Origin: Citrus sinensis | Taxonomy: Eukaryota > Streptophyta > Magnoliopsida > Sapindales > Rutaceae | Direction of reading: 5' to 3' | NCBI RefSeq assembly: GCF_022201045.2 | Contig: NC_068558.1 | Location: forward strand, 51,191,501-51,255,500 | Length of the DNA stretch: 64,000 nucleotides | Shown here: in pieces, positions 45,116-55,340 of the stretch | Position numbering within the stretch: the first letter of the stretch is position 1 | Layout: every line of letters begins with the position of its first letter | The notes under the pieces: generated by a model | What the model saw: the letters and a program-made list of their open reading frames with translations, nothing else | The model's database searches: none | Told to the model about the DNA's origin: nothing | Translations under genes and position numbers: made by a program

Positions 45116-45937
45116 TGTTGGTGGTAAATTTTGTGGGGAATGACAAATGTAGAGAAATACAACAATAATTGTGGAACTTTAATATGTAAAATAATGTGTT
45201 TACAACTAACTCTGTATGTAGGAAGAAACTGCAGAAATTTTGTGTGCTTCAAGGTACGTTACAAATGTCGCTTTCCTTAAGACGTTATTTGCCCCCACCA
45301 ATTGAATGATGCACATGGGTTAAGCAAATACGCCTCCAGGATACAATGAAGCACTTGTTTGTTTGCTTGCGTTGTGCATCGACGAAAGCAAACTAGAATA
45401 CTCTTTAATGTTGCAAGCCTACCAAGAAACAATATATTGTTCCTGCATAAAACAATATATTGGAATGTGAATGCACAAAAGAAATGGGTGTTTTGTGTTG
45501 AGATTCGTACTAGAAAGGAATGCTAAGAAAAGATTGGTGTAGGATCATTTATTTCATGTCTAAATGGCTTAAACATGACCCCTATTTATAGATATACTTG
45601 TGCCCCCTCATTTGGGTTATCATCTTTCATGATACCCCTTCATTCATGGCCATTGGATCTAGATTTGATTTTAATCAATGGTCCAAATTGAACCATCACT
45701 ATTTCAAATGAAATGTCACCATGAAATGATGCATCTCTAAGTGAAATGTTGCCATGAAAAGTTATATCATTTAGTAAAAGGATACCTTTTCTACAAGACA
45801 CAATTAAATGGACATGTCCTTACAACAAGACATCATTTAATTAGACAAGTCTTTAGTGAAAGGTACATTTTCTATAAGGCACAATTAATAGGACATGTCT
45901 TTACCATAAGACACAATTATTTTGAAAATTTCCAACA
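45116..45937 (-). repeat. 3' LTR of the copia element
   Basis: 822 bp, TGTTGG..CCAACA, same length as the 5' LTR. Short open frames within it are not genes. Confidence 0.9.
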
Positions 45938-46474: not shown

Positions 46475-49400
46475 TCATTGGTGATAAGATGATGCTGACT
46501 TCAGTCCCATCCCCTTAGAAGTTTTAAATACAATATCCCTTGGCATGATTTCACAAAGTCAATTGTGATTACTCCATCTGTAAGTAATTGTCTTACATAA
46601 CTATGTCTTAGACCAATGTGCCTAGACTTTCCATTATAGATTTGACTATATGCTCTTGATAAAGTTGCCTCACTATCACAGTGAATAGATACAGGAGGCA
46701 TTGGTTTAGACCAAATAGGAATTTCTATAAGCAAATTCCTTAACCATTCAGCTTCCTTGCAACATGAAGCCAAAGCTACAAATTCTGCAGCCATGGTGGA
46801 GTCTGCTATACAAGTTTGCTTCTTTGAGCCCCATGAAATAGCTCCTCCACCAAGATTAAAAATCCAACCACTTGTGGATGTATGATCATCTCGATCAGTA
46901 ATCCAACTAGCATCCGAAAATCCTTCCAAAACTGAAGGATATCCAGTGTAGTATATACCATAATCCATTGTATGTTTTAAATATTTTAGAATTCTGTACA
47001 CTGCTTGCCAGTGTGCTTGGCTTGGATTACTAGTATATCTACTGAGCTTTCCAACAGCGAAAGCAATATCAGGCCTAGTACAAGTCATTGCGTACATAAG
47101 ACATCCAATAATACGTGCATATTCTAATTGGGATACTGATCTGCCAGTGTTAGGATACAGTCTTATGTTTGAATCAAAAGGTGTTGACACAGACTTACAA
47201 TCATAATAATAAAATTTCTTTAAAATTTTCTCAATATAATGTGATTGGGTCAATACTAGGCCATTCTCATTTTTTATAATTTTAATCCCCAAAATCACAT
47301 CAGCAAGTCCCATGTCTTTCATATCAAAAGTAGATGACAATAATAATTTAGTGAGTTCAATGCTCTCACTATCAGTACCAAAAATTAACATGTCATCTAT
47401 ATATAAACAAATAATCACACCTTTATTTCCATTGAATCTGCTATAGACACATTTATCAGATTCATGAATATTAAATCCATTTGAGACAATCACTTTGTCA
47501 AACTTTTCGTGCCACTGCTTTGGGGCTTGTTTAAGACCATATAAAGACTTGACTTGTTTACAAACTTTATGTTCTTGTCCTGGCATAACAAACCCTACTG
47601 GTTGTTTCATGTAAATTTCCTCATCTAATTCTCCATTTAAGAAAGCTGTTTTTACATCCATTTGATGGATTTCAAATTGATAAATTGAAGCCAAAGCAAT
47701 CAAAACTCTAATAGTAGCAATTCTTGCAACAGGTGCATAAGTATCAAAATAATCAAGGGCTTCTTTTTGTGTAAAGCCTTTTGCTACTAGTCTTATTTTA
47801 AATCTTTCAATTGTTCCATCAACTTTCTTCTTCTTTTTGAAAATCCATTTACAACCTATAGGATTAGAGCCAGGAGGTAAATCAACTAATTTCCAAGTCT
47901 TATTACCCACAATAGAGTCCATTTCATCATTAATGGCATCTTTCCAAAAAGCAGCATCTTGAGACTTCATTGCCTCTTCATAGGTGAGGGGATCAGACTC
48001 TATAGTAGATGTGATCATGGTCTGTTTTGATTGTGAGTCTCTTGTCCCTTCAACTAAATAAACTATAAAATCTGGTCCAAAAGATTTTAGAGTCCTTATT
48101 CTTTTACTTCTTCTCAAATGATTTTGCTCATTATTAGCATCATGCTTTTGACCAATTTCTATTTGTTTATCATTCTCTTGAGAATCAATACTTTTTGGTA
48201 TAGTGGAAAATCTATTTTCATAGAATATTGCATCTGTAGATTCCACTATAGTATTGATCTCAACAAAGCTATTAGGTTCTGTTACAAGAAACCTATAAGC
48301 TTTACTATGCTCTGCATATCCCAAGAATATGCATTCAATGCCCCTTTCTCCTAATTTCTTTATCTTAAGTTCTGGTAGTCTTACAATGGCTCGACAACCC
48401 CAAACTATTAGATAAGAAAGATTAGGCTTTTTCTTTTTCCATAATTCGTATGGAGTCACCTTTGTTTTCTTATTAGGCACTCTATTTAAGATATGACATG
48501 CAGTTAAAATAGTTTCACCCCAAAAACCTTTACCAAGCCCAGCATTAAAAAGCATAGCATTAACTATTTCTATTAATGTCCTATTTTTCCTTTCAGCTAC
48601 ACCATTTTGTTGTGGAGTATATGCAGTGCTAGTTTCGTGTACAATGCCAACAGATTCACAAAAATCAGAAAAGCATATTCACCTCCTTTATCACTTCTAA
48701 GGCATTTAATTTTAGTGTCACAAAAATTCTCAACTTCATTTTTATAAGTTTTAAATTTTTCTAACACTTGATCTTTAGAATGTAATAAATACACATAGCA
48801 ATATTTTGAAAAATCATCAATAAATGTTATAAAATATTTTTTACCACCTTTAGAAGGATTACTATGCATATCACACACATCGCTATGAATTAAATGCAAT
48901 AAAGAAGATGTTTTTTCAATTTTTGGAAAAGGAGATCTTGTGATTTTAGTTTGTGCACATACTTTACATTTTTCATGCATATCATTTTCATGCTTAGGAA
49001 TTAATTCTAAATTAGCCATATCATGCAATCTTCTAACATTCACATGTCCTAAACGATTATGCCACAAAGATAATGAATCAACCATATAAGCAGAAGAAAC
49101 ATTCATATTATTGATATTGAGTTTAAACATTCCTTCATACATGTATCCTTTCCCAACAAAGGTACCACCCTTAGATAATATAAACTTGTTTGACTCAAAA
49201 ACAAGTTTGAAGCCAAGCTTATTAAGAAGGCTACCAGATACAAGGTTTTTCCTAACTTCAGGAACATGATAAACATCTGTAAGAGTTAAAGTTTTTCCGG
49301 AAGTGAACTCTAGTTGCACATTGCCTTTTCCTTTAACTATTGCAGTGGAGGAATTTCCCATGTAAAGAACACTTCCATCATCCATTGCTTTATAAGATTT

Positions 49401-50342
49401 GAAAAGGCTACGATCCTTGCATACATGCTTGGTTGCACCAGAATCTATCCACCATGCATTATCATCTTCAAGAACATTAATCTCAGATATTATGGCCACA
49501 AGATTTGTGTTCGAAACTTCCTTTTGTTTCTTCAGAAGTCGACAATCTCTTTTGAAATGGCTAGGTTTTCCGCAGTGGTGGCATGTACCCTTCTTTTTCT
49601 TCTTATTGTTTTAATTCTCTTTGGCATCAAACTTTCTCTTTTGGTTATTCTTAGGGTGATTAGAATGCTTAAACTCCTTCCCTTCCTCTACGACATTAAT
49701 TTTAGAGGACATAGTAGTCTGATCCTCAATACTATTAAGCTTGAGTTCCTCTTCAATACGAAGACTTTGGCCTAAGCCATCCAGACTAATTTCCTCTTTG
49801 TTATGTTTAAGACTTTTCTTATAGTCTTTCCAAGAGGGAGGAAGTTTATCAATAATTGAAGAGACAATAATAGACTCATCCATTTTCATGTTATGTTGGT
49901 TGAATTGATCAAGAATATGCAAAATCTCATTATATTGTTCAACCACGAGTCTATTATCAACCATTCTATAATTAAAAAATTTAGAAGCCAAGAATTTCTT
50001 ACTTGTGGCATCTTCCATCATGTACTTAGCCTCTAATGAGTCCCATATCTCTTTTGATGTAGGTTTGTTGTGATATTGATCAAACAAAGTATCAGACATG
50101 GCATTGCAAATGTGTCCCTTACACACGTAGTCATCTTGCTCCCACTTATGTCGCACTCTGGTTTCCGCTAATGTCTCATTCTCACGTTCTTGAGGCTTTG
50201 GTGTTGTGAGAACATAGACCACATTGAGGCTTGTCAACAAGAAATGCAACTTTTTCTGCCAACGAATAAAGTTGCCACCATCGAACCGCTCCAATTTGAC
50301 AAAATCTACTGCAAATTGTCGAAGAGATGAACTTGGTGCCAT
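46475..50342 (-). pseudogene. copia gag-pol polyprotein, broken by a stop and two frame disruptions
   Basis: From ATG 50342: gag (FDGGNFIRWQKKLHFLL; UBN2-like). An in-frame TAA follows at 49611-49613, and beyond it, still in the same frame, is the zinc knuckle CHHCGKPSHFKRDC. Then come the protease (DSGATKHV), the integrase zinc region (WHNRLGHVN..CKVC) and the integrase core. The core loses one base at about 48675-48680, after GGEYAF, and resumes one frame over. The reverse transcriptase has [35 protein letters not shown] and the catalytic [10 protein letters not shown]. RNase H has DASW and [17 protein letters not shown]. Near 46530-46550 the frame changes again with apparent loss of sequence; the terminal [15 protein letters not shown] is in another frame and stops at 46475. 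Domain order PR-INT-RT-RH is diagnostic for copia. Confidence 0.9.
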
Positions 50343-50367: not shown

Positions 50368-51189
50368 TGTTGGTGGTAAATTTTGTGGGGAATGACAAAT
50401 GTAGAGAAATACAACAATAATGGTGGAACTTTATTATGTAAAATAATGTGTTTACAACTAACTCTGTATGTAGGAAGAAACTGCAGAAATTTTGTGTGCT
50501 TCAAGGCACGTTACAAATGTCGCTTTCCTTAAGACGTTATTTGCCCCCACCAATTGAGTGATGCACATGAGTTAAGCAAATACGCCTCCAGGATACAATG
50601 AAGCACTTGTTTGTTTGCTTGCGCTGTGCATCGACGAAAGCAAACTAGAATACTTTTGAATGTTGCAAGCCTACCAAGAAACAATATATTGTTCCTGCAG
50701 AAAACAATATATTGGAATGTGAATGCATAAAAGAAATGGGTGTTTTGTGTTGAGATTCGTACTAGAAAGGAATGCTAAGAAAAGAGTGGTGTAGGATCAT
50801 TCATTTCATGTCTAAATGGCTTAAACATGACCCCTATTTATAGATATACTTGTGCCCCCTCATTTGGGTTATCATCTTTCATGATACCCCTTCATTCATG
50901 GCCATTGGATCTAGATTTGATTTTAATCAATGGTCCAAATTGAACCATCACCATTTCAAATGAAATGTCACCATGAAATGATGCATCTCTAAGTGAAATG
51001 TTGCCATGAAAAGTTATATCATTTAGTAAAAGGATACCTTTTTTACAAGACACAATTAAATGGACATGTCCTTACAACAAGACATCATTTAATTAGACAA
51101 GTCTTTAGTGAAAGGTACATTTTCTATAAGGCACAATTAATAGGACATGTCTTTACCATAAGACACAATTATTTTGAAAATTTCCAACA
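50368..51189 (-). repeat. 5' LTR of the copia element
   Basis: 822 bp. On the minus strand it holds a TATA box (CTATAAATAGGGG, about 50831-50843), which would drive the element's transcript. Confidence 0.9.
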
Positions 51190-53114: not shown

Positions 53115-53253
53115 AATTATTTTGGGAAATTTACGAAAATAACCATAAAATTTTTACTATTTTTCGAATTAACCCTCTCAACTTTTTTCTATCAACATTA
53201 GCCAAACACACGCTTTTCTCCCCAAATTACCCTTTTTTACAAACGAAAAGAAA

Positions 53254-53515
53254 CTTGGTGCGACAGGCCCAAGTCTTGGTGCGACAGGCACCTGTCGCAC
53301 TAAGCTTTGGTGCGACAGGTTGCCTGTCGCACCATGCCTTGGTGCGACAGGTTGCCTGTCGCACCATGCCTTGGTGCGACAGGCACCTGTCGCACCAAAC
53401 TTTGGTGCGACAGGCAACCTGTCGCACCATGCCTTGGTGCGACAGGCACCTGTCGCACCAAGCTTCGTGCGACAGGCACCTGTCGCACCAAGTCTCGTGC
53501 GACAGGTTGCCTTCT
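53254..53515. repeat. Array of seven GC-rich palindromes inside the Pack-MULE
   Basis: Arms GGTGCGACAGG and CCTGTCGCACC are separated by two or three bases (CA, TTG or CAA). Seven complete palindromes recur every 30-33 bp, joined by short linkers such as AAGCTT, ATGCCTT and AAACTTT. A forward half-site stands alone at each end, giving nine forward and seven reverse arms by my count. Each arm has two CpG sites. The array is far more GC-rich than anything around it and open in several frames on both strands, which is why spurious ORFs appear there; none is a gene. Confidence 0.95.
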
Positions 53516-53717
53516 TCTACCTCAGTATTTGTTTGTTTTCACCAGTCCTTTCGTCTTTGTTCGTCTCTTCTTATTCGTATGTAATATCTTCTTCTACCTC
53601 AGATCGAATCTCATCCGACAACCCAAACAACAAAACAAAATCAGCTTTTTAATTCTCTAAAATCCAATTTCGGAATTCAAATTCCCCGGGATTTTCCATC
53701 AAAAGCCACGTTGCGAA

Positions 53718-54164
53718 ATGCTAGGCGGGCTGTACGGATACCTACCTCCACCCTCCGATGAGGACAAACCCACCAACACGACCACCACTGTCTGGTCAAT
53801 TTTCGCGCCACCACAAACCATCCTCAAGCCCCAATCCAAACCCAAAACCACCCAAAATTCTCTCCCGACTAGACCCCATTCCTCACCTGCAATCGCACCT
53901 TCCCCCGACGACGTGGTAGCGCTGCCGCAACCGGCATTGGTCGACGTGACTTCGACCGTAATCAAGGAGCACGACCCCGCTAGACCGAACGATTACGAGG
54001 ATTATAGGAGAGAGAAGAAGAAGAAAGAGGTGGATGTTGAAATTAATAGAGAACTGGAGAGAAGAAGGCAAGAGGAAGAGGAAAGGGAGATGAGAGAGAA
54101 GGGTAATTTGGTCTCAACGGTTCTTTTATGGCTAATGTTGATAGAAATTTGTTTGAGGGGTTAA
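53718..54164 (+). pseudogene. Captured DRT111/SPF45 N-terminal fragment, chimeric ORF
   Basis: The 148-codon frame opens MLGGLYGYLPPPSDEDKP and continues with FAPPQTILKPQSKPK, QPALVDVTSTVIKEHDPARP, NDYEDYRREKKKKE and a Glu/Arg-rich helix (RELERRRQEEEEREMREK), the N-terminus of plant DRT111, the SPF45/RBM17 splicing-factor homolog. The G-patch and RRM domains that do the work in DRT111 are absent. The last 20 or so residues, from GNLVSTVLL onward, are encoded by the right TIR, making a transposon-tailed chimera. The frame is intact and starts at the native ATG, so it could be translated if transcribed, but there is no evidence that it is. A DRT111 cDNA-like 5' UTR seems to have been carried along. 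Confidence 0.85.
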
Positions 54165-54218
54165 GATGAAAAAAACTAAAATTTTTATGGTTATTAGTGT
54201 AAATTTCCCAATTATTTT

Positions 54219-54854: not shown

Positions 54855-55247
54855 CTAATAAGCGCATTGGAAGCCACTCGGGACACCGTTGCCACAATAA
54901 TTCAAGAGCAAGCTCAAGGAGATGGGGAGATTTAAGTTGATGCCCAAAATGTTAGCCTTAATGGCAGTGCAAAGACATACAGCAGCTTCAAGATCGGCAA
55001 GGCCTTTAAGAAGAGCGCAGCACGGTGTTACCGGTGGTGTTCCCACAACAAGATGGACTAAATCATTCAACAAATCAGCACACACTCCTAGCTTTAGAGT
55101 ATCTCTAGGGCAACTAGGCTGGGGTGGGGGAGGGCATTGCGGCTTAGGAATAGGAGTGCAAGGCACATTGTGTGCACCGGCCAAGGTGAAGACAACAATG
55201 TTGAGAATGAGAAGAAGAGCAATGTTTGCGGAACACTTAGAAGCCAT
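54855..55247 (-). CDS. Hybrid proline-rich protein with 8-cysteine (LTP-like) domain
   Basis: One exon, 130 residues from ATG 55247 (MASKCSANIALLLILNIVVF); upstream in-frame codons to 55328 are not preceded by a better ATG. A signal peptide covers about residues 1-26. A short proline-rich stretch follows (PCTPIPKPQCPPPPQPS). The eight-cysteine motif begins at SCPRDTLKLGVC and runs C..C..CC (TPCCALL)..CLC (AVCLCTAI)..C (NYCG)..C (FQC). This is the DC2.15/AIR1/pEARLI1 group of secreted cell-wall proteins, related to lipid-transfer proteins and involved in wall extensibility, defence or root development depending on the member. The proline segment is at the short end of the range. A TATA box lies about 95 bp upstream. 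Confidence 0.93.
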   Translation of the reverse strand: MASKCSANIALLLILNIVVFTLAGAHNVPCTPIPKPQCPPPPQPSCPRDTLKLGVCADLLNDLVHLVVGTPPVTPCCALLKGLADLEAAVCLCTAIKANILGINLNLPISLSLLLNYCGNGVPSGFQCAY

Positions 55248-55340
55248 TTCCAAACACAGTAATAGTACTGTTGACGTTGCTTCTAAAGTTTTTTCTTTTG
55301 TGTGTGTTTTGAGTGGTGAGTATGGCAAAGTAGAGCTGAG

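Follow-up and report, generated by a model that had tools for sequence, protein, structure and literature searches.

One stretch of Citrus sinensis DNA raised the question of what a ladder of GC-rich palindromes is doing inside a presumed transposon. An earlier note on the window, by which we mean the whole 64,000-nucleotide stretch that was analysed, had reported seven such palindromes at 53254-53515, with nearly fixed arms, loops of 2-3 bases, and TTG and CAA among the loops. The ladder is real, and it is made of repeated half-sites.

53257..53506, unstranded: palindromic array of 16 half-sites GGTGCGACAGG, forming seven full palindromes and two lone half-sites, with a centre spacing of 30-32 bp
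53278..53301, unstranded: palindrome 1, spacer CA
53309..53333, unstranded: palindrome 2, spacer TTG
53341..53365, unstranded: palindrome 3, spacer TTG
53373..53396, unstranded: palindrome 4, spacer CA
53404..53428, unstranded: palindrome 5, spacer CAA
53436..53459, unstranded: palindrome 6, spacer CA
53466..53489, unstranded: palindrome 7, spacer CA

The lone half-sites flank the palindromes, one before them (53257) and one after them (53496), and each of the 16 half-sites has at most one mismatch to GGTGCGACAGG. TRF gave the array a period of 32. The description of the loops was right as well, since the spacers, read by eye, run CA, TTG, TTG, CA, CAA, CA and CA. The reported span does contain the array, and its edges were drawn too wide, by 3 bp at the left and 9 bp at the right. 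With up to two mismatches allowed, GGTGCGACAGG matches the 64-kb window 22 times, 16 of them at 53257-53506; 100 shuffles gave a mean count of 3.07 and a maximum of 9, and none gave 22.

The palindromes were also said to lie in a transposon, and the element can be delimited.

53115..53123, unstranded: left TSD, AATTATTTT, the same 9 bp being present at both sides of the element
53124..54209, plus strand: non-autonomous Mutator-like element (MULE) of the Pack-MULE type, 1,086 bp, GGGAAATTTAC...GTAAATTTCCC, with TIRs and TSD
53124..53204, plus strand: left TIR, 81 bp, of the mudrA-side type; autonomous-like copies have left-type matches on their mudrA side
53511..54125, plus strand: presumed captured host-gene fragment, containing an ORF at 53718-54164
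54129..54209, minus strand: right TIR, of the DUF1985-side type, the inverted arm
54210..54218, unstranded: right TSD, a perfect 9-bp copy of the left one

The inverted arms, found as 83-nt stretches at 53122-53204 and 54129-54211, are 81% complementary, and together with the perfect TSD they bear out the transposon. The array is confined to one end of the element, where it starts 134 bp in, between the left TIR and the captured fragment. The ORF in this fragment presumably resembles the start of DRT111/SPF45. The fragment has 30 near full-length genome matches at 95-100% identity, the window copy included, one further match at 88%, and shorter pieces. No donor was found: the sole matching locus examined outside the family (L082) is diverged and 74-84% alike in pieces, and it has no copy of the motif and no intact ORF matching the captured fragment. 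Queries with mudrA, DUF1985 and Ulp1 found no match in the window, nor was there a second TIR pair in it. A short string, CTTCTTCTACCTCAG, occurs twice, at 53511-53525 and 53588-53602, one of them where the array meets the captured fragment, and the duplicate is possibly a scar of capture.

Whether the motif belongs to this element or is scattered through the genome was examined across 299.7 Mb in 11 contigs. The 11-mer arm had 1,212 matches (587+625) versus 35 (18+17) for a reversed control, and exact palindromes numbered 211 versus 0 for the control. From about 35 clusters, formed by about 100 first places listed, 20 motif loci were picked by hand and fetched, with multi-hit clusters favoured. 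Eighteen of the 20 carry the family TIR, 16 of them at both ends and two (L014 and L025) at one. The other two, L010 and L027, are lone motif matches without the element, as expected from the control rate of the 11-mer. The opposite search used a TIR query that ends with the first six array bases, with 704 first-look candidates of which 40 were scored; when copies of the window element are set aside, half-sites were present in 8 of the 8 loci fetched from the scored TIR matches. The 11-mer arm marks one MULE clade. Neither of the two outcomes named beforehand as refutations, an artefact or a dispersed satellite unrelated to MULEs, is borne out, and the descriptions of the array as MULE-borne, subterminal and a member of a family are all supported.

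Beyond the window, 24 further element copies were read, which makes 25 with the window element. A perfect 9-bp TSD was found in 22 of the 24 parsed copies, the window element among them, and is absent in L028 and L045; a 25th copy, outside the parsed set (L039), sits in a T tract. Across 194 half-sites from 24 element copies, the eleven arm positions are 87-100% conserved among units preselected at no more than 4 mismatches, which agrees with the view that the arms are almost fixed.

The number and make-up of the units are far less stable. The parsed copies are 855-1,180 bp long and hold from 0 to 10 palindromes. Three copies at different sites (L030, L031 and L032) have identical 832-column cores and equal half-site numbers, while L031 and L032 differ in spacer bases and L030 differs in the order of its unit variants. 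The window element differs from L021 in about 1 of 832 core columns, yet the two have 7 and 10 palindromes, and L033, one column from the identical three, has 9 half-sites versus 16. Because nearly identical cores carry differing arrays, both among the three and in the pair of the window element and L021, the array changes faster than the rest of the element. A complete palindrome is missing in three of the 24 copies (L009, L041 and L043), each through a different deletion; no palindrome-removing deletion is common to two insertions, so these copies do not show the palindrome to be dispensable.

Two trends run through the same copies. The younger the copy, the longer its array tends to be (Spearman -0.67, p 0.0004, n 24), a correlation among related copies whose sign later shrinkage would also yield. 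With other states set aside, CpG decay in the 11 older copies stands at 1/63 in array arms versus 40/408 elsewhere in the element (p 0.03). Part of this decay is in fact ancestral, because the young clade dominates the consensus that served as reference. The Mantel-Haenszel odds ratio over 24 copies is 0.21. The lower decay in the arms fits what hypomethylation predicts, and homogenisation among repeats would give the same result; the arms, moreover, had been picked by similarity.

Larger relatives show where the motif sits in elements that have genes. Five autonomous-like copies (L011, L015, L016, L019 and L020), about 7.2-8.5 kb long, have mudrA starting from one end and convergent DUF1985 exons from the other, with an Ulp1-type C48 domain further in on the same strand as the DUF1985 exons. 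The DUF1985 and Ulp1 exons probably form one gene. In L020 the domains are PF10551, PF03108 and SWIM for mudrA, PF09331 for DUF1985 (E 4.9e-20) and PF02902 for the Ulp1 C48 part. The relatives have a MURA-type transposase, with homologues in L011, L014, L015, L016, L019, L022 and L025. Genome-wide, the DUF1985 domain had 141 matches (140 of 512 candidates scored) and the N-terminal part of mudrA had 124 (121 of 721 candidates scored), many of both being free of stops. At one end of L015 (L015:8429-9455, contig C1), 82-nt TIR matches follow one another five times, with about 447 bp to each pair, which resembles the multiple-TIR MULEs described in the cited part of PMC3310237.

Both subterminal zones of the five autonomous-like copies contain half-sites, from a single unit to a few. 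In the larger copies they start 323-367 bp inside on the mudrA side and 462-557 bp inside on the other side. Sixteen sides of nine elements were examined and a start codon was found in 12; in all 12 measured sides, at either end, 76-99 bp separate the end of the last half-site from the ATG, and the half-site is followed by a splice-acceptor-like TTTCAG or TTACAG. Among the matches listed for contig C1, by counts compared by hand, the exact 11-mer lies within 200 bp upstream in 9 of 12 cases for DUF1985 and in 9 of 10 for mudrA, where about 0.02 are expected in all; it is missing nearby for the other three and one.

The unit that is conserved is the half-site GTGCGACAG (mostly TTGGTGCGACAGG), usually placed head to head, and flanks, spacers and unit number vary around it. 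This was seen in the upstream regions of 20 DUF1985 genes that are 57-96% identical. A count of 9-mers in the 420 bp upstream, made with no prior motif, put GTGCGACAG first, in 18 of the 20 regions. Among 8-mers in the same regions, GTGCGACA, TGCGACAG and poly-A tie at 18. In the 14 diverged regions GTGCGACA occurs in 13 and poly-A in 12, and 50 shuffles of those regions gave no 8-mer in more than 5, a shuffling that breaks poly-A too. Exact GTGCGACA or its reverse complement was found in 19 of the 20 upstream regions (0-0.06 in shuffles); the remaining one, L057, has no exact GTGCGACA and two one-mismatch forms. On the mudrA side exact half-sites occur in five of six regions, and the sixth, L087, has one-mismatch forms alone.

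The motif takes several forms within the clade. In subfamily B the arms on the mudrA side read GTG[A/G]GACAGG and make up arrays with a 54-bp period (L050, L051 and L017a, and L049 by likeness), and the DUF1985 side mainly keeps the C form; the changed base, from GTGCGACAGG to GTG[A/G]GACAGG, removes the CpG of the motif. Arrays on the mudrA side of L083, L084 and L088 differ in their flanks and repeat about every 83 bp. Large arrays of differing make-up, at one end or the other of their elements, occur in the window Pack-MULE, in L018 with L076-L081, in L023, in L056 (30 exact half-sites, DUF1985 side), in L049/L050 and in L083/L088. As their units and places differ, the large arrays of different lineages probably arose separately. 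Spacers between arms range from 2 to 6 bp, and tail-to-tail half-sites are also present in the family.

Two short relatives have palindromes in other arrangements. One at L052:708-2578 (contig C2), with facing TIRs, is a chain of tandem 205-bp units whose two halves mirror each other; every unit holds the palindrome GTGGGACAGGTGCCTGTCGCAC, and similarly spaced ladders occur elsewhere on contigs C2 and C3. The other, a 745-bp relative on contig C1, has palindromes at about 4730-4811 of L024 that are nested in a larger inverted repeat, CGTGGGTGAATCT...AGATTTACCCACG.

The explanation that we favour, at a probability of roughly 45%, is that a cis element common to a whole MULE clade has been amplified into the array, which may act as a docking platform for an element-encoded DNA-binding protein, likeliest of the DUF1985/Ulp1 type, with an anti-silencing role. 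The evidence in place for it is the family association, the position, the conservation of the half-site amid divergence, the lineage-specific arrays and the co-occurrence with DUF1985 genes. A half-site that is kept while spacers, flanks, orientation and copy number change resembles the target of a DNA-binding protein, and we are led to suspect the following mechanism. The GTGCGACAG half-sites directly upstream of both element genes would serve as a cis element, on which a sequence-specific protein encoded by the element would dock. That protein would be the DUF1985/Ulp1-type product of the second gene rather than MURA. Once bound, it might remove silencing marks from the element, on the model of the VANC proteins of Arabidopsis, and a longer array would offer more docking sites and perhaps a better escape from silencing and more transposition.

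The preference for the DUF1985 protein comes from Arabidopsis, where VANC proteins combine DUF1985 with binding to fast-changing tandem motifs in the noncoding DNA of MULEs. According to the cited passages, the targets of these proteins are short motifs, arranged as variable tandem repeats in noncoding regions (Hosaka 2017, PMC5735166); the repeats change fast, and the binding goes with loss of methylation (PMC5735166; PMC10398659). The Citrus data set some bounds on the analogy. The same elements also carry mudrA, so co-occurrence points no more to DUF1985 than to MURA, and since in subfamily B the DUF1985 side mainly keeps the C motif while the mudrA side has changed, motif and protein do not simply switch together. 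Also counting against the favoured explanation are the three of 24 copies that hold no complete palindrome, and the misses upstream of genes: L057 and L087, with one-mismatch forms alone, and the three DUF1985 and one mudrA genes on contig C1 that have no exact 11-mer close by. The earlier note had proposed a platform bound by the transposase. A protein-binding platform is the best reading; the cognate MURA may be the binder, but the array is at one end of an element with 30 copies.

The likeness to the Arabidopsis families VANDAL21 and VANDAL6 extends to their organisation. In the cited descriptions these too are MULEs with a DUF1985 second gene and a short motif repeated in noncoding DNA (PMC5735166; PMC10398659), with arrays that expand, contract and vary among related elements and a motif that differs by subfamily. 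They differ in being non-TIR MULEs and in their motifs, given as YAGTATTAY and AGTTGTCC/AGTTGTAC. The Citrus sinensis clade has 81-bp TIRs and a GC-rich, CpG-holding, mostly palindromic motif; because of the TIRs the elements are not assigned to the VANDALs. The word 'palindrome' was not found in the main text of the two VANC papers (PMC5735166, PMC10398659). A second comparison is with the Ulp1-carrying MULEs, or Kaonashi (KIU), which according to the cited part of a review (PMC13317346) likewise join a MULE transposase to an Ulp1-type C48 domain (in the Citrus clade on the same strand as DUF1985); according to the review, Ulp1-carrying (KIU) VANDALs also recognise motifs of their own kind. 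They are described there as non-TIR MULEs of A. thaliana, with similar ones in grapevine, melon and rice, whereas the Citrus clade is TIR-bounded and has palindromic arrays.

The first alternative, which we regard as possible but doubtful, is that the array is a subterminal transposition site, where the mudrA transposase or an accessory protein would aid synapsis and excision much as TNPA does. The motif is indeed subterminal at both ends of the autonomous-like copies, and there are precedents. The 12-20 bp TNPA-type sites of CACTA elements form palindromes, and in Spm/En and the soybean Tgmt* elements, as far as they are described in PMC2613891, the short subterminal TNPA-binding repeats include many palindromes, differ between subtypes and number 12 palindromes at the right border of Tgmt*. 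Those elements differ in their CACTA ends, their 3-bp TSD and the place of their repeats, which adjoin the TIRs and take up the first 159 and 732 bp there (PMC2613891); a CACTA assignment of the Citrus element is ruled out by its termini GGGAAATTTAC and its 9-bp TSD. A MULE precedent is Muta1 of Aedes aegypti, in which a 12-bp unit is repeated in tandem near the ends, more or fewer times depending on the derivative, although these are direct repeats within the TIR, and the cited part of the paper does not mention a DUF1985 gene (PMC5225508). The Pack-MULE is harder to reconcile with such a role. It has no array at its right end and still exists in 30 copies at 95-100% identity, so that the array is hardly essential for cutting at both ends. 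The motif also starts well inside the elements, at the distances given above for the window element and the larger copies, and its placement tracks start codons. The three of 24 copies that have no palindrome would count against a transposition site too, but no deletion is common to two insertions.

The link to start codons suits a second alternative, a promoter or 5'-leader element through which a transcription factor of host or element would drive or time both genes and the captured fragment, the arrays being enhancer-like multimers. The 76-99 bp spacing to the ATG in every measured side, with the splice-acceptor-like string after the motif, is what such an element would look like, and MULE TIRs are known to contain promoters, as described in the cited part of PMC3310237. 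Alone, however, it gives no account of the growth to 7-15 units in several lineages, and we consider it unlikely.

That growth could also be idle. Unstable palindromes may expand and shrink by slippage, with the arrays as passengers that have no function, and the pairs of near-identical cores with different arrays (the L030-L032 trio, the window element against L021, and L033 against the trio) are what slippage would produce. Slippage does not explain why, upstream of DUF1985 genes that are 57-96% alike, no other 9-mer is shared as widely as GTGCGACAG, nor why GTGCGACAG is kept at both ends of the family, and the chance that the arrays are mere passengers seems small.

Least probable of all, and only a slim chance in our view, is that the transcribed array folds into RNA hairpins that are diced into small RNAs or regulate translation: the predicted fold is strong (-209 kcal/mol, z -21) and G-U single changes exceed A-C ones over all units (35 versus 22), but the fold is one long hairpin with small ones rather than a ladder, and among unique main-subfamily units the single changes are 15 G-U versus 19 A-C, with no Watson-Crick compensation and two double changes that leave G-U. 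The covariation check on main-subfamily units thus gave no clear signal, and the stacked RNA hairpins of the earlier note are weakly indicated at most. Position 4 has changed on both arms in subfamily B (C-G to A-T in many units), a change that fits a symmetric protein site no less than a hairpin; many subfamily B units, on the other hand, have G opposite T, and the 205-bp ladder type has G opposite G. The 2-6 bp spacers and tail-to-tail half-sites also speak against hairpins. Rfam returned look-alikes of miRNA precursors, but all 38 matches are below their gathering scores, and a microRNA precursor was rejected.

Within citrus itself, CitMule has been described, a MULE of about 6.9 kb with 9-bp TSDs (PMC4334395). 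It was set aside as the same family because its transposase has a FAR1 domain; the cited part of the paper further gives it a 5-exon transcript and mentions neither Ulp1 nor palindromic arrays (PMC4334395).

The ingredients of the docking platform are each known: MULE, Pack-MULE, DUF1985/Ulp1 second gene and motif arrays. The listed open-licence literature did not show them together in one TIR-bearing clade whose two genes are both preceded by a GC-rich, palindromic CpG motif, and a search of the literature for the motif strings gave no plant-transposon title among the 20 matches listed of 65. If the docking-platform reading is true, sequence-specific anti-silencing by transposons reaches beyond the TIR-less VANDALs. 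The copies form a natural series, practically the same body with 0 to 10 palindromes, which suits the question of dose, motif number versus silencing; how many motifs protect an element could in turn help explain the multiplication of Pack-MULEs.

A more far-reaching version, which we offer as speculation and think rather unlikely to be right in full, is that a large and recently active clade of TIR-MULEs has its own DUF1985-Ulp1 factor, which would target a CpG palindrome before both genes. Pack-MULEs would hijack this factor by amplifying the array, and array length would tune the escape from silencing, so that younger copies have longer arrays. The sister subfamily would have lost the CpG of the motif on one side, as if removing a methylation target.

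Two neighbours of the Pack-MULE in the window were seen along the way. Retrotransposon ORFs, Copia-like by eye, lie at 46501-50342 on the minus strand and are flanked by like repeat tracts at 45793-45855 and 51045-51107, which are presumably in its LTRs. On the other side, about 0.65 kb from the Pack-MULE, a minus-strand ORF at 54855-55328 appears by eye to encode a small cysteine-rich secreted protein of the lipid-transfer/hydrophobic-seed type.
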